Positions 6,793 through 40,549 of a DNA stretch of 41,006 bases are shown piece by piece (within the stretch, counting starts at the first letter, position 1; each line of letters begins with the position of its first letter). The position numbers were made by a program, and so were the translations under genes. The notes beneath the pieces were generated by a model. The model was not told the origin of the DNA and did no database searches. It saw nothing but the letters and a program-made list of their open reading frames with translations. The stretch is from Bacteroidales bacterium (GTDB taxonomy: Bacteria > Bacteroidota > Bacteroidia > Bacteroidales > VadinHA17): positions 1 to 41,006 of the forward strand of contig JAAZBN010000252.1 of assembly GCA_012513795.1 (NCBI GenBank), read 5' to 3'.

Positions 6793-6880
6793 GGTCGTGC
6801 GGTCGTGCGGTCGTGCGGTCGTGCGGTCTTGCGGTCTTGCGGTCGTGCGGTCTTGCGGTCTTGCGGTCTTGCGGTCGTGT
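6793..6880. repeat. 8-bp tandem array, 11 copies of GGTCKTGC
   Basis: GGTCGTGC x4, GGTCTTGC x2, GGTCGTGC, GGTCTTGC x3, GGTCGTGT read in an unbroken 8-bp phase. Confidence 0.95.
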
Positions 6881-31405: not shown

Positions 31406-31566
31406 GATGTTCGATTTGCGATTTGCGATGTTCAATGTGCGATGTTCAATGTTTGATGTTCGTTGTGCGATTTGCGATGTTCAATGTGCGATGTTCAATG
31501 TGCCTACTGCCGACTGCCAACTGCCGACTGCCAACTGCCAACTGCCGACTGCCAACTGCCAACTGA
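31406..31566. repeat. Heptameric tandem array, 23 phased 7-bp units
   Basis: Units 1-14 are GATGTTC/GATTTGC/AATGTGC type, units 15-23 are CTACTGC/CGACTGC/CAACTGC type; no phase break over 161 bp. Confidence 0.95.
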
Positions 31567-34698: not shown

Positions 34699-34904
34699 CT
34701 CTTTTATTCTGGCTGCAAATATAGCACAATAGTTTGTTACTTTCAGTCCTGAACCGATCATTGGATGTTGGACAAATTGTTCAAAAAAGTTGATAACTGT
34801 TCATTAATTTTTGACGAAAGCCAAACCGGCATCGGGAAAAACGGTCTATCTTTAGCTTGTACATTGGGGCATCAAGTACATTTCATGGGAAGGAAATACA
34901 GATT

Positions 34905-35363
34905 ATGGTTAAACTACAAGATATCAGGATTGAGGCAACCTCCAAGACGCCGGCTGTAAGTTTTACGGCCGGAACAGGCAATCTGAACTTTACCGGCAAA
35001 TCTCTGCCAGAGAATGCCTCGGGATTTTTTGAACCTCTTTACAAATGGGCATCAGAGTATGCCAAGAATCCGGCAGAGAGCACAAATCTGAAGTTTAATG
35101 TTGACTACTTCAATACTTCCTCCGTGATCTGGATGGGGAAAATATTGAAGGTTCTGACGAAGATTAAGAAGAATGATCATATTTTGTTTGTTCATCTCTA
35201 CTTTGACATTGAGGAATATGACTCAATGGGAGAAGAGGATGTAAGGGAATCCCTTTCTCCCTTCCTTGATGTCACCGCAGATGCAACATGCAGTGTCGGA
35301 ATAAGGCTTTACGGCATTGATGAAGACGGCAATACGCTCAAGGAGAACATTGTTCTCATCTGA
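34905..35363 (+). CDS. SiaC-family regulatory phosphoprotein (DUF1987)
   Basis: IEATSKTPAVSFTAGTGNLNFTGKSLPENASGFFEPLYKWASEY...FNVDYFNTSS. Confidence 0.87.
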   Translation: MVKLQDIRIEATSKTPAVSFTAGTGNLNFTGKSLPENASGFFEPLYKWASEYAKNPAESTNLKFNVDYFNTSSVIWMGKILKVLTKIKKNDHILFVHLYFDIEEYDSMGEEDVRESLSPFLDVTADATCSVGIRLYGIDEDGNTLKENIVLI

Positions 35364-35426: not shown

Positions 35427-36926
35427 ATGAAAACGGTTAGTCTTTTCCTGGTAATTTTAATTTTTCCACTCATGAACATATTCGGACAGGAACGTAACAG
35501 GCAGCCTGTTGTATCAGGCAGTTTCTATCCTTCCGGCAGTGAACGGCTCAGAAGTGAGCTGGAAGGTTATTTCTCCTCGTTCGTCAGCCCATCTCCGGGC
35601 GTTAGGGTGAGGGCTATCATGGTGCCGCATGCCGGTTATGTCTTCTCCGGTCACACGGCAGCGGCAGGATTTGCTGCTATTCCTGCCGGTGAGACATATG
35701 AAAACATTTTCCTGATAGGCGTCAGTCACAGGTATGCATTTGAGGGCGCTGCAGTTTTCACATCCGGCAACATGGTCACCCCTCTGGGTACTCTGAAGGT
35801 CAACAGGGAACTGGGTAATCAGCTTATCTCGACCAATAAATGGTTTATTGAGAAGAATGAGGCTCACGGACCCGAGCATTCGCTGGAGGTTGAGCTCCCA
35901 TTCATTCAATACAGGTTTGATCCTGCACCGCCCATCATTCCCATTCTGATAGGGACACGCAACCTTACTGTTTTGAAGGGAATAGCATCAGGATTGCAGC
36001 CCTGGTTCAATGAGCGCAATCTCTTCATAATCAGCAGTGATTTTTCTCACTACCCCTCCTACGCGGATGCCTGCCGCGTTGACAAAATGACAAGTGATGC
36101 CATCGTTAAGGGTGATCCTGAAGGGTTTTTACGCACTATAAGGAATATTGAATCGTCCGGTGTTGACAATCTTGCCACTGCGATGTGTGGCTGGCCTGCC
36201 GGCCTGATACTGTTGTATCTTGCTGAAAAGAGTGACGGCCTGTTATTCCGCAATGTGGAATACACAAATTCAGGTGATTCACCCATGGGTTCGGACGATG
36301 AGGTTGTAGGATACAATGCCATAGTGCTGGAGCAGAGGACTGCCGGAAGGAAAGAGAGGCCCGCGCAGGAAGCCTTCACCCTCACCACCCCTGAAAAGAA
36401 AGTGCTTCTCTCAATTGCCCGGGAGGCTATCCTGGCAAGACTGGAGCGACGCAAGCCCTCATCCGTGGATGAGGCCAGGCTGACATCCCGCCTGTGCGAA
36501 CCTCTCGGTGCCTTTGTCACCTTGACCTCCAGGGGAGACCTGAGAGGTTGTATCGGTCGTTTCACCTCCTCTGATCCACTATGGGAAGTGGTCAGTGCCA
36601 TGGCAACGGAAGCAGCCTTCAGCGACCCCCGCTTTCCACCGCTGACAAAAGATGAATATCCCTCGATACATATTGAGATATCGGTTCTGGGGCCAATGAA
36701 GAAGATACAGTCTGCTGATGAAATAAAGATCGGGCGTCATGGCATTTACCTGAAGAAGGGTTATCGCTCGGGCACCCTCCTGCCGCAGGTGGCTACTGAG
36801 CGCGGCTGGAGCGTGGAGCAATTCCTCGGGTACTGTGCCCGTGACAAGGCCGGGATCGGATGGGACGGCTGGAAGGACAGGGAGACTGAGATCTTTGTCT
36901 ATGAAGCTTACGTCTTCGGCGAATAA
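35427..36926 (+). CDS. Exported Memo-AMMECR1 fusion (AmmeMemoRadiSam system proteins B and A)
   Basis: Signal peptide MKTVSLFLVILIFPLMNIFGQ; Memo motifs VPHAGYVFSGHTAA, GVSHRYAF, SSDFSHY, CGWPAG; AMMECR1 motif GAFVTLTSRGDLRGCIGRF. Confidence 0.92.
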   Translation: MKTVSLFLVILIFPLMNIFGQERNRQPVVSGSFYPSGSERLRSELEGYFSSFVSPSPGVRVRAIMVPHAGYVFSGHTAAAGFAAIPAGETYENIFLIGVSHRYAFEGAAVFTSGNMVTPLGTLKVNRELGNQLISTNKWFIEKNEAHGPEHSLEVELPFIQYRFDPAPPIIPILIGTRNLTVLKGIASGLQPWFNERNLFIISSDFSHYPSYADACRVDKMTSDAIVKGDPEGFLRTIRNIESSGVDNLATAMCGWPAGLILLYLAEKSDGLLFRNVEYTNSGDSPMGSDDEVVGYNAIVLEQRTAGRKERPAQEAFTLTTPEKKVLLSIAREAILARLERRKPSSVDEARLTSRLCEPLGAFVTLTSRGDLRGCIGRFTSSDPLWEVVSAMATEAAFSDPRFPPLTKDEYPSIHIEISVLGPMKKIQSADEIKIGRHGIYLKKGYRSGTLLPQVATERGWSVEQFLGYCARDKAGIGWDGWKDRETEIFVYEAYVFGE

Positions 36927-39398
36927 GTGGTTATCATGACCTATCATGTCCTGCCCATAGGATTGACCGTTCTGGTACTTTATATCTTCTCCCTTTACCT
37001 CTCCTCACAGGGTTTCACAGCCAGATTATCCCACCGCAGGTTCTGGAACTGGATATTGCTGGTCTCCTTCCTGGTGACCGGATTGTTTGGTATCTTCCTG
37101 ACTCTCAGGATTAATTACCGCTGGGAGCTGTCCTTTGCTGAGTCACTCAGGCACTGGCATGTGGAGACCGGTATTGCAATGGTGCTCGCAGCTCTCATTC
37201 ATCTTTCATGGCACCTTGGATATTACTTCAGTAAGAAAAGCCGGAACGCCGGAAACCAGTCTGCCCGGGAATCTGCAGGCAAGAGTTCACCTGAGCCCAC
37301 TGCTGCAGGCAAGAGTTCAGCTGATATCGCAGCGGGAAGATTCAGGCCGCTGTTGCTGCTGACCGGTTTTGTCAGCTCATCATCGCAGTTTATCCTGATG
37401 CGCGAGGCAGTCATCCTCGGAGGGGGAACTGAGGCAGTAACGGGACTCTTTCTCTGGCTATGGCTGATAATATCTGCAGCCGGAGCACTGGCGGGTGGCA
37501 GATCAGGGATCACCTCACTGAGGAAGATGATCTGGACGCTCATTGCCTGCACTGCCCTTGCCCCTTTGTTGCTGATCTCGATATCGACAATCATCCTCAG
37601 TCCCGGCCAGACACCCTCCTTTTACCAGACACTGGCCATCATGGGTACATGTGTTGCGCCGGTGACATTCATCTCGGCCCTTATTTTCGTGCGTATATCT
37701 GTCATCAGGTATAACATGGATCTGGCAGATTCAGGCCACAGCTTCGGAGCAGAAACGGCAGGATCAGTTACAGCAGGAATTTTGACCGCCCTTACGGTGA
37801 CTGTCAGAATACCTAATTTCCAGCTCTACCTGCTCATCCTGTTGCTGGCAGTGGTGACAGCTGTCTGGCTGCTTGAAAGAAATGTACATTTAAAGATACC
37901 GGCAATCATCATTGCAGTTTTGCTGGGGGCGGTCCTGTTCATCAAACCGCCCGATCCGTTCATCAGAAGCAAGCTTCTCCGGGGTGTCAGGGCAGAGAAG
38001 AGCACAGACACACCCTATGGCAACATCACAACAGGTCTTTACGGTGGTGAGCTGACGGTCTATTATCACCACAGGCCGCTCTTCTATCCCGGTGACGTGA
38101 TAAGCTCAGAAGAGAACATCCATTATGCCCTCTTGCAGCGCGATAGTTATGACAGAGTGCTTCTCATCTCAGGGGGCCTCAAAAAACACCTGGATGAGTT
38201 AGTAAAGCATCCCATAGCCGCGGTTGATTACTTGGAGCTTGATCCCGGGCTTATAGCAGCCGAGGAAGCCCGTGACACTGTCTGCGGAACCATGAAGGTG
38301 AGAGTAATAAGCAGTGATCCGATGACCTTCATAAGGGAAAATGATTACATATATGACGCTGTCATTCAGCTGATCCCACCACCTTCAACACTGTCAGTGA
38401 GCAGGTTCTACACTGTAGAATATTTCCGGATGGTCCGTGAGCATCTGTCGCCTGATGGCGTATTCATGTGCACACCAATGCCCTGGTTCAACTATTCACC
38501 TGAGAGCTACAGGAGGGGATTTTCTCCCCTTTTTAACGCCCTTTCGTCGGTTTTCAGCCACATTACACTTATTCCCGGCTCCATGCTTTATGTTATTGCT
38601 TCGGAGAGTCCTGTAAGCCCGGAAATAGCTCAGATGGCCGGTCAGAAAGGGATGATCAACAGCTATGTCAATACTGATTATCTTGACGATCATGAGATCA
38701 GGCTCAAGGAAGAGCAGATTCTGTCACAGGTTGACAGGAGAGCAGGGATGAACAGGGCAACAAGGCCTGTCTCCTCCCTGTTTGCCAACATGCTTTCTCT
38801 TGAAAAGATGGGGATGAGGGGAGGCATCATTACTCTTCTGACCGTGCTGATAGCCATTCCATTTTTATTTGCGGCTCGTCGGGGGTTGCTGATGTTCGCC
38901 TCTTCAGCCGGTCTGGCAGGCTACGGAATGATAATGATATTCATTCTGCAGATGGCTGTTGGCAACATCTATATTCTCTCGGCGGTGATCCTGACGCTGC
39001 TGATGGCCGGGCTGGCCACAGGTGCGGTGCTTGGAGAAAGGCTGGCCCTGAAGAAGATCAGCCTCTGCACACTGCTACTGACAGCGATATTCGTCCTGAC
39101 CGGCCTGCTGGCTCCCGCACTGGTCACATCCCCTCCCGGTCCGGTCATAGTATTCCTGTTCATAGCGCTGCCGGTATCAGGCATAATTACCGGGGCTGTC
39201 TACAGGATCCTGACCTCGCGTGACTCAGGCATGGTCACGGGCAAAGTATATTCAGCAGACATGGCCGGTTCGGCCCTGGGATATCTCACGGCAGCCACCC
39301 TGCTTGTGCCGCTGGCAGGTACAGCCAACTCATGTTTTATTCTTGCGGCCCTCATTTTGATATCAGGCACTGTTGCATCGTTGACTATAAAACAGTAG
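36927..39398 (+). CDS. Polytopic membrane protein with spermidine-synthase-like domain
   Basis: 823 aa; N-terminal and C-terminal TM bundles; middle domain TPYGNITTGLYGGELTVYYHHRPLFYPGD...RVLLISGGLKKHLDELVKHPIAAVDYLELDPGLI...FYTVEYFRMVREHLSPDGVFM. GTG start at 36927 or ATG at 36936. Confidence 0.82.
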   Translation: MVIMTYHVLPIGLTVLVLYIFSLYLSSQGFTARLSHRRFWNWILLVSFLVTGLFGIFLTLRINYRWELSFAESLRHWHVETGIAMVLAALIHLSWHLGYYFSKKSRNAGNQSARESAGKSSPEPTAAGKSSADIAAGRFRPLLLLTGFVSSSSQFILMREAVILGGGTEAVTGLFLWLWLIISAAGALAGGRSGITSLRKMIWTLIACTALAPLLLISISTIILSPGQTPSFYQTLAIMGTCVAPVTFISALIFVRISVIRYNMDLADSGHSFGAETAGSVTAGILTALTVTVRIPNFQLYLLILLLAVVTAVWLLERNVHLKIPAIIIAVLLGAVLFIKPPDPFIRSKLLRGVRAEKSTDTPYGNITTGLYGGELTVYYHHRPLFYPGDVISSEENIHYALLQRDSYDRVLLISGGLKKHLDELVKHPIAAVDYLELDPGLIAAEEARDTVCGTMKVRVISSDPMTFIRENDYIYDAVIQLIPPPSTLSVSRFYTVEYFRMVREHLSPDGVFMCTPMPWFNYSPESYRRGFSPLFNALSSVFSHITLIPGSMLYVIASESPVSPEIAQMAGQKGMINSYVNTDYLDDHEIRLKEEQILSQVDRRAGMNRATRPVSSLFANMLSLEKMGMRGGIITLLTVLIAIPFLFAARRGLLMFASSAGLAGYGMIMIFILQMAVGNIYILSAVILTLLMAGLATGAVLGERLALKKISLCTLLLTAIFVLTGLLAPALVTSPPGPVIVFLFIALPVSGIITGAVYRILTSRDSGMVTGKVYSADMAGSALGYLTAATLLVPLAGTANSCFILAALILISGTVASLTIKQ

Positions 39399-39430
39399 CT
39401 TTATAACCGGGCATAGAAACACACATCTGA

Positions 39431-40549
39431 TTGAAAGACAAGGGGAAGAAGATATCAAGGAGGAGCTTTGCCCGGCAGGGGTCGCTGGCTGTTGCCGCAG
39501 GTTTTATTGCACCTGCAGGGAGTGCTGCGTTAATACCTTCCACAGGAGAGAGACTGGCTATGTATCAGGAGCAGAGTGCCCGTGGTGTGGTCTGCCTGAT
39601 CTGTCCCAATGAATGCACCTTAAAGGATGGCGAGCTGAGCGACTGCCGCAACAGGATAGCCAGGAGGTCGAAACTCTATACCATGGCTTACGGCAATCCG
39701 TGTGCTGCCAATATTGATCCGATTGAGAAAAAGCCCCTGTATCATTTTCTTCCCGGAACATCAGCCTTTTCAATAGCTACCGCCGGTTGCAACCTGGCAT
39801 GCCTCAACTGCCAGAACTGGACTATCTCTCAGACTTCACCTGACAAGACGAGGAACTACGACATGCCCCCTGAGGATGTTGTCAGAAGGGCATCAGCCGG
39901 CGGCTGCAGATCAATTGCATACACCTATTCCGAGCCGGTTACCTTTTATGAATACGTGCTGGACACATCAAAAATAGCGCATGAGGAAGGGATCAGGAAC
40001 ATCATGGTCTCAAACGGATATATCAACAAGGAGCCGCTCCGGCAGCTCTGCAAACACATTGACGGTGCCAACATAGACCTCAAGTCATTCAATGACAGCA
40101 CATATCTCAAGCTTACCGGAGGCAGGTTACAGCCTGTCCTGGACAGCCTCAGAACCTATCGTGATGAAGGGGTATGGCTGGAGATCACTCACCTGGTGGT
40201 TCCTGGCTGGACTGACAAGCCTGAAGAGATAAAGCAGATGTGCGGATGGCTGGCCGGGAACGGTTTCAAAGACACGCCGCTCCATTTCAGCCGTTTTCAA
40301 CCGCAGTACAAGCTGGAGCACCTTCCTCCCACTCCCGCAGGCATACTGAACAGGGCGGTGGAGATAGCCAGGAGCGCGGGTATCAGGTACGTATACATGG
40401 GTAACATGCCGGGTTCAGGGTTTGATGACACCATCTGCCCCTCATGCGGAAAGAAGGTGGTGGACCGTAGCGGTTACAGGATAGTTGCTCAAAACCTGAA
40501 AGATGGCAGATGCTCCTGCGGTGCACTGATTCCGGGAGTCTGGCACTGA
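39431..40549 (+). CDS. AmmeMemoRadiSam system radical SAM enzyme with Tat-like leader
   Basis: Leader SRRSFARQGSLAVAAGFIAPAGSAAL; radical SAM CNLACLNC; C-terminal CPSCGKKVVDRSGYR...GRCSCGALIPGVW; TTG start. Confidence 0.92.
   Translation: MKDKGKKISRRSFARQGSLAVAAGFIAPAGSAALIPSTGERLAMYQEQSARGVVCLICPNECTLKDGELSDCRNRIARRSKLYTMAYGNPCAANIDPIEKKPLYHFLPGTSAFSIATAGCNLACLNCQNWTISQTSPDKTRNYDMPPEDVVRRASAGGCRSIAYTYSEPVTFYEYVLDTSKIAHEEGIRNIMVSNGYINKEPLRQLCKHIDGANIDLKSFNDSTYLKLTGGRLQPVLDSLRTYRDEGVWLEITHLVVPGWTDKPEEIKQMCGWLAGNGFKDTPLHFSRFQPQYKLEHLPPTPAGILNRAVEIARSAGIRYVYMGNMPGSGFDDTICPSCGKKVVDRSGYRIVAQNLKDGRCSCGALIPGVWH

Follow-up and report, generated by a model that had tools for sequence, protein, structure and literature searches.

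A probable extracytoplasmic branch of the AmmeMemoRadiSam system with a near-constant membrane protein in Bacteroidales

AmmeMemoRadiSam is a widespread three-part enzyme system, and its families (TIGR04335, TIGR04336 and TIGR04337) and their co-occurrence are already known. The version described here occurs in many Bacteroidales. Memo and AMMECR1 are both found in humans and are linked to disease. In the cytosolic form of the system, Memo stands alone (about 285 aa) and is accompanied by a leaderless radical SAM enzyme (about 340 aa). A related logic is known from the MsrP/MsrQ type, in which a Tat-exported redox enzyme has its own haem membrane subunit. The spermidine-synthase fold is combined with membrane helices in the fused MFS/spermidine synthases (NF037959) and in the membrane-bound polyamine aminopropyltransferases (NF002956/PRK03612). 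The metal ligands of human MEMO1 are H49, H81 and C244, and its primary molecular function is unknown (PMC11081632).

The window, that is the whole stretch of 41,006 nt that was analysed (positions 1 to 41,006 of contig JAAZBN010000252.1, assembly GCA_012513795.1, Bacteroidales), contains three consecutive genes on the + strand at 35427-40549, here called P1, P2 and P3. They are separated by gaps of 9 nt and 32 nt, and the earlier note had rightly described them as same-strand genes with almost no gaps. As in the known AmmeMemoRadiSam system, the three components scored over cut-off and were adjacent, and their motifs (CX3CX2C, the Memo metal site and the AMMECR1 RGCxG) were complete. The locus differs from the usual one in that components A and B are fused and preceded by an export signal, a Tat-type leader precedes the radical SAM enzyme, and the set includes a near-constant membrane protein. 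The cytosolic form coexists with this one in some of the same genomes, for instance G034, G042 and G049. The features are as follows.

35427 to 36926, + strand: P1, Memo-AMMECR1 fusion (AmmeMemoRadiSam B and A in one chain), 499 aa; Pfam and NCBIfam, above cut-off
35427 to 35486, + strand: Sec-type signal peptide at the N-terminus of P1, MKTVSLFLVILIFPLMNIFG then Q; from the sequence
35505 to 36323, + strand: Memo domain of P1, metal-site residues H68, H101 and C254 retained; Pfam and alignment
36411 to 36917, + strand: AMMECR1 domain of P1 with the motif L-R-G-C-I-G; Pfam and alignment
36936 to 39398, + strand: P2, membrane protein of 820 aa with 17 helices, in which two halves of six helices flank a spermidine-synthase-like domain; hydropathy and AlphaFold2
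36936 to 37229, + strand: N-terminal 3-helix domain of P2 with near-invariant H33, H75, H89 and H93, a possible b-haem domain; alignment, DUF4405 below cut-off
37950 to 38816, + strand: P2 domain resembling spermidine synthase, predicted to lie in the periplasm, with invariant E434 and D461 and no Asp at the catalytic positions 478 and 481; sequence, fold and alignment
39431 to 40549, + strand: P3, AmmeMemoRadiSam radical SAM enzyme, 372 aa, TTG start; TIGR04337
39455 to 39475, + strand: Tat-type leader motif of P3, SRRSFAR; sequence and alignment
39788 to 39811, + strand: CX3CX2C radical SAM [4Fe-4S] motif of P3 (C120, C124 and C127); 29/29

P1 scored 168.7 bits for Memo and 178.6 bits for AMMECR1 in Pfam, and 219.9 and 172.5 against TIGR04336 (cut-off 26) and TIGR04335 (cut-off 99), respectively. 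These scores and the hydrophobic N-terminus agree with its earlier description as a Memo-AMMECR1 fusion bearing a signal peptide; in many relatives a lipobox cysteine occupies the signal-peptide site in place of the form seen in the window. In the alignment, H68, H101 and C254 corresponded to H49, H81 and C244 of MEMO1 and were present in 25 of 25 sequences, as was an intact RGCxG motif. MEMO1 thus shares its metal-site residues with P1, but it is a single domain with neither an AMMECR1 fusion nor an export signal. In the window's own genome (3.13 Mb in 317 contigs, 88% complete), no Memo or AMMECR1 besides P1 was found. P3 matched TIGR04337 with 348.1 bits (cut-off 220), and its TTG start was shared with close relatives. 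The CX3CX2C motif and eight more cysteines were retained in all 29 aligned homologues. Because the radical SAM, Memo metal and AMMECR1 motifs are intact, the predicted exported enzymes are not decayed copies.

P2 was present in 40 of 60 relatives, and P1, P2 and P3 were adjacent on one strand in the window's genus, in its family and in a number of further families within the order. When GTDB genome contigs were scanned separately, 309 P2 relatives were confirmed, and the best 80 of the 309 were analysed. Among these, P1 was upstream of P2 in 72 of the 74 loci with room for it, and P3 followed P2 by no more than 400 nt in 65 of the 70 loci with room; in the other five, P3 was also nearby on the same strand, either at a greater distance or linked through a long overlapping frame. 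Outside the class, loci from two other families of the phylum (L174 and L177) retained P1-P2-P3, L175 had the order P3-P1-P2, and in L176 the three genes were separated by others. Across 198 genomes of the order, TIGR04337 was found in 45 of 46 genomes with P2 compared to 49 of 152 without it (Fisher p 6e-17, kinship ignored), and coordinates placed the two on one contig within about 5 kb in 34 of the 46. Gene order had been named beforehand as a test that could refute the proposal, and P2 adjoined P1 and P3 in most of the 80 loci, so that this test did not refute it. The position of the membrane protein between the parts of the trio was correctly noted earlier, but it belongs to this branch as a fixed additional member and is not an inserted intruder.

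The genes argS, a SiaC-like gene and ligA flanked P1-P2-P3 in about 50 loci. They were rejected as partners and attributed to Bacteroidales synteny alone, since they were lost in distant loci while the trio persisted; once the flanks changed, no conserved fourth partner or substrate gene was found in the loci surveyed. The SiaC-like (PF09345) phosphoprotein gene, at 34857-35363 of the window, immediately precedes P1 on the same strand and was kept in 55 of the 80 loci.

The leader of P3 consists of a Tat-like motif of the [ST]RRxF(L/I)K type followed by a moderately hydrophobic stretch, and in P2 loci it took the form [KR]R-x-F-(ILVA)-(KR). Of 105 distinct P3-type enzymes, 84 had the strict motif [KR]R.F[ILVAMT][KRH] upstream of the first CxxC, compared with 1 of 2126 background stretches of 45 aa from neighbouring proteins, so the leaders did not arise by chance. 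No Pfam or NCBIfam Tat-signal model was among the matches listed for P3. The earlier identification of P3 as the cognate radical SAM enzyme with a twin-arginine-like leader held, given the TIGR04337 score and the SRRSFAR motif. The window's own genome encodes TatC, as do 56 of the 60 relatives. From its sequence, P3 is predicted to be exported by Tat in a folded state that includes its [4Fe-4S] cluster.

The presence of a P3 leader agreed with the presence of P2 in the locus in 100 of 104 cases (84 with both and 16 with neither). In P2 loci, 84 of 86 P3 enzymes had a leader, and the two leaderless ones were tandem second copies beside a leadered one (L069 and L160); in loci without P2, 16 of 18 were leaderless, and the two leadered ones came from genomes with P2 on another contig (G031 and G041). 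A hydrophobic N-terminus was found on P1 in 84 of 86 P2 loci, while 13 of the 15 P1 proteins from loci without P2 had none, giving agreement in 97 of 101 cases. Two of the four exceptions, L059 and L068, come from split-contig genomes that do have P2. A natural control was provided by G058 (L072), which has P1 and P3 without P2 and in which both are leaderless. In a tree of P3, the leadered enzymes formed one clade apart from the cytosolic ones (support 100/100) with two later leader losses. Failure of the leaders, with the proteins being cytosolic, had been put forward as a second ground for refutation; this was examined by conservation, and the leaders were found to be conserved and to track P2, so that the proposal was not refuted here either. 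Two genomes, G027 (L053) and G038 (L090), had an exported-type Memo-AMMECR1 fusion with neither P2 nor an exported radical SAM enzyme, and these fusions are possibly relics or have a different use. In G337 and G353, which have P2, the one type of radical SAM enzyme found had the length of a leaderless one.

In L069 (G048) and L160, the leaderless second radical SAM gene came directly after the leadered one in the same operon and possibly encodes a cytoplasmic copy of the exported enzyme. The window's genome (G000; L002 and L088) also contained a second TIGR04337 enzyme at 17216-18184 of contig C16, leaderless and without adjacent Memo or AMMECR1, which adjoined a sugar-isomerase-like protein with an RRDFIK leader and an aminotransferase-like gene. 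A close relative of this enzyme was present in G012 and G014.

The start of P2 was placed at the ATG at 36936 (820 aa) in preference to the GTG at 36927 (823 aa), and the resulting MTYHV is conserved in the genus; the earlier length of 823 aa was therefore revised, and the polytopic character of the protein was confirmed. Homologue-averaged hydropathy, the AlphaFold2 model (mean pLDDT 88.5, pTM 0.88) and the internal repeat formed by the halves agreed on 17 helices in the order three N-terminal, six, one, soluble domain, one and six. In 59 sequences, counted with the long linker and the spermidine-synthase-like domain excluded, the K+R content per P2 averaged 12.4 on the cytoplasmic side and 2.3 opposite, with the same direction in 59 of 59. 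This distribution argues that the N-terminus and the spermidine-synthase-like domain are outside and the C-terminus is inside. Helices 317-336 and 630-646 are predicted to be the two extra ones that turn the domain outward, and topology prediction, which had been proposed as a check, gave 17 helices with the domain predicted to face the periplasm.

The N-terminal domain of P2 is accessory. Roughly half of the P2 homologues of the order lacked it, as did every homologue seen outside the class, and because of this it cannot be the general electron source. H33, H75, H89 and H93 were each found in 56 to 59 of 59 sequences. H75 and H89 are 14 residues apart on one helix, a spacing that is found in many b-type cytochromes. 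The commonest Pfam match was DUF4405 (cytochrome b561-like), which was listed for 16 of 30 homologues and stayed below cut-off, at 17.9 bits for the N-terminus of P2 (gathering threshold 26.7); no sequence relative was found in the PDB and no solved fold matched. For these reasons an assignment as a haem domain was not adopted, and haem in this domain is only a possibility.

The spermidine-synthase-like domain of P2, first suggested in the earlier note, was recovered both by Pfam (Spermine_synth, 38.4 bits) and by its fold, with 1uir as the best PDB match (Foldseek E 1.5e-10, TM-score 0.66 over the target). The sequence IIDLTDP of 1uir aligned with VIQLIPPP of P2, so that the catalytic Asp was replaced by Q478 and the second Asp by P481. 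Across the family, position 478 was L, Q, M, I, V, A or S and position 481 was P, A, S or G, with no Asp at either position in 59 sequences, and the GGGDG motif of spermidine synthases (GGGEG in the 1uir alignment) was also lost. P2 was thus rejected as an active spermidine synthase, and the replaced catalytic positions exclude aminopropyl transfer as far as a sequence can. E434 and D461 were invariant in 59 of 59 sequences and aligned with the nucleoside-binding acidic positions of 1uir; the nucleoside-binding role of these positions and the catalytic role of 478 and 481 are those that we take from family knowledge. From these few conserved residues it is plausible that the domain still binds a SAM-type nucleoside. 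The best NCBIfam matches of the P2 family were NF037959 and NF002956. The window's P2 reached 54 bits against NF002956, which has a cut-off of 472, and did not match NF037959 at E 0.01, a model matched by 15 of 30 homologues. P2 differs from both groups of proteins in that the catalytic Asp is lost and the domain is predicted to be made periplasmic by the two extra helices.

Of the envelope-associated modification system suggested in the earlier note, modification is a putative function, and the envelope association is well supported by inference from the adjacency of P2, the leaders, TatC and the topology, because the soluble domain of P2 is predicted to share the periplasmic side with the exported enzymes and the leaders are conserved. 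With regard to location alone, we give a probability of roughly 0.85 that P1-P2-P3 make up an extracytoplasmic branch of AmmeMemoRadiSam. A SAM-handling role for P2 in addition to this location is a tentative proposal, which we hold at somewhat less than even odds. Its strongest support is the consideration that a radical SAM enzyme outside the cytoplasm would need SAM, and that its near-constant partner has an outward-facing, catalytically altered domain of a SAM-family fold.

In such a scheme, P1 would be exported by Sec and become a periplasmic protein or lipoprotein, and P3 would fold with its cluster before export by Tat. P2 would span the inner membrane and hold its spermidine-synthase-like domain out into the periplasm, having lost polyamine synthesis and kept the binding of a SAM-type nucleoside. 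It would then supply SAM to P3 outside the cytoplasm, or remove 5'-deoxyadenosine and methionine, and would dock P3 and P1; the docking of P3 to P2 is something we infer. Where the histidine-rich N-terminal domain is present, it may relay electrons to the cluster of P3, with quinol as their source. P3 would carry out radical chemistry on a putative envelope substrate, and the Memo metal site, which is extradiol-dioxygenase-like, would act in the same pathway. The transport of SAM by P2, electrons from a P2 haem and the envelope substrate are speculative. A complete periplasmic radical SAM reaction, in which P2 carries SAM across the membrane to its outward SpeE-like domain and passes it on to P3 while a P2 haem gives the electrons in some lineages, is doubtful. 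To our knowledge, the periplasm has no supply of SAM or of a low-potential reductant, and radical SAM chemistry is not known to occur outside the cytoplasm. The arrangement would resemble that of MsrP/MsrQ in its logic, with a folded cofactor enzyme outside and a possible b-haem partner.

An alternative with the same location is that P2 is a mere anchor or receptor, a dead scaffold on which P1 and P3 dock, with SAM and electrons arriving by another route or the cluster not serving SAM cleavage. The loss of the catalytic aspartates and of GGGDG, the invariance of E392, E393, H396, Y397 and Q401, and the optional N-terminal domain would all suit a scaffold, but a pure scaffold would not need the conserved E434 and D461, and two transporter-like halves of six helices exceed what an anchor requires; we regard this as possible but rather unlikely. 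P2 could instead itself modify or transport what the pathway yields, such as a lipid, an isoprenoid or a polyamine-like compound made or used by P1 and P3. Its MFS/spermidine-synthase architecture with 12 core helices fits, and Burroughs et al. (2019) reportedly connected Memo contexts with the modification of nucleotide bases and isoprenoids; the lack of a conserved substrate-specific neighbour and the lost polyamine-transfer residues make this reading unlikely. Least probable, and in our view quite improbable, is that P3 stays cytoplasmic with a degenerate signal or membrane tether as its leader and only P1 and the P2 domain outside: the leader reads KR instead of RR in 66 of 84 leadered homologues, and radical SAM enzymes require SAM and a reductant that are both cytoplasmic, but all 29 of the leadered homologues compared have R11 and F13 and carry K, R or H at position 15, cytosolic paralogues have no leader, the window's genus has a true RR, and leader presence goes with P2 and with the signal peptide of P1. 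The KR form is also a weak point of the extracytoplasmic reading: Tat transport of twin-lysine leaders in E. coli is possible only at greatly reduced efficiency, a result that covers twin-lysine and not KR (PMC5449189).

Returning to the extracytoplasmic branch, an envelope location with a fixed membrane partner would mean that the substrate is to be sought in the cell envelope, and the operon is compact. If P3 truly works outside, SAM and a low-potential electron would be needed there, and P2 would be the candidate supplier; we know of no system that supplies both outside the cytoplasm. If P2 does carry SAM to P3 there, it would be the first known SAM supplier for extracytoplasmic enzymes. 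In the literature searched, no exported AmmeMemoRadiSam or periplasmic radical SAM enzyme was found; the Memo-AMMECR1 work of Burroughs et al. 2019, which is cited in PMC7159879, may already mention part of this. The leadered, P2-linked branch was not found described there, and the outward placement of the P2 domain by the positive-inside analysis is an addition of the present work.

Elsewhere in the window, two abutting 7-base tandem repeats of the GATGTTC and TGCCAAC types were located at 31406-31565 between folD-like and ffh-like genes, and spurious open frames arise from them. A further repeat at 6793-6879 consisted of 11 tandem copies of the 8-mer GGTCGTGC.
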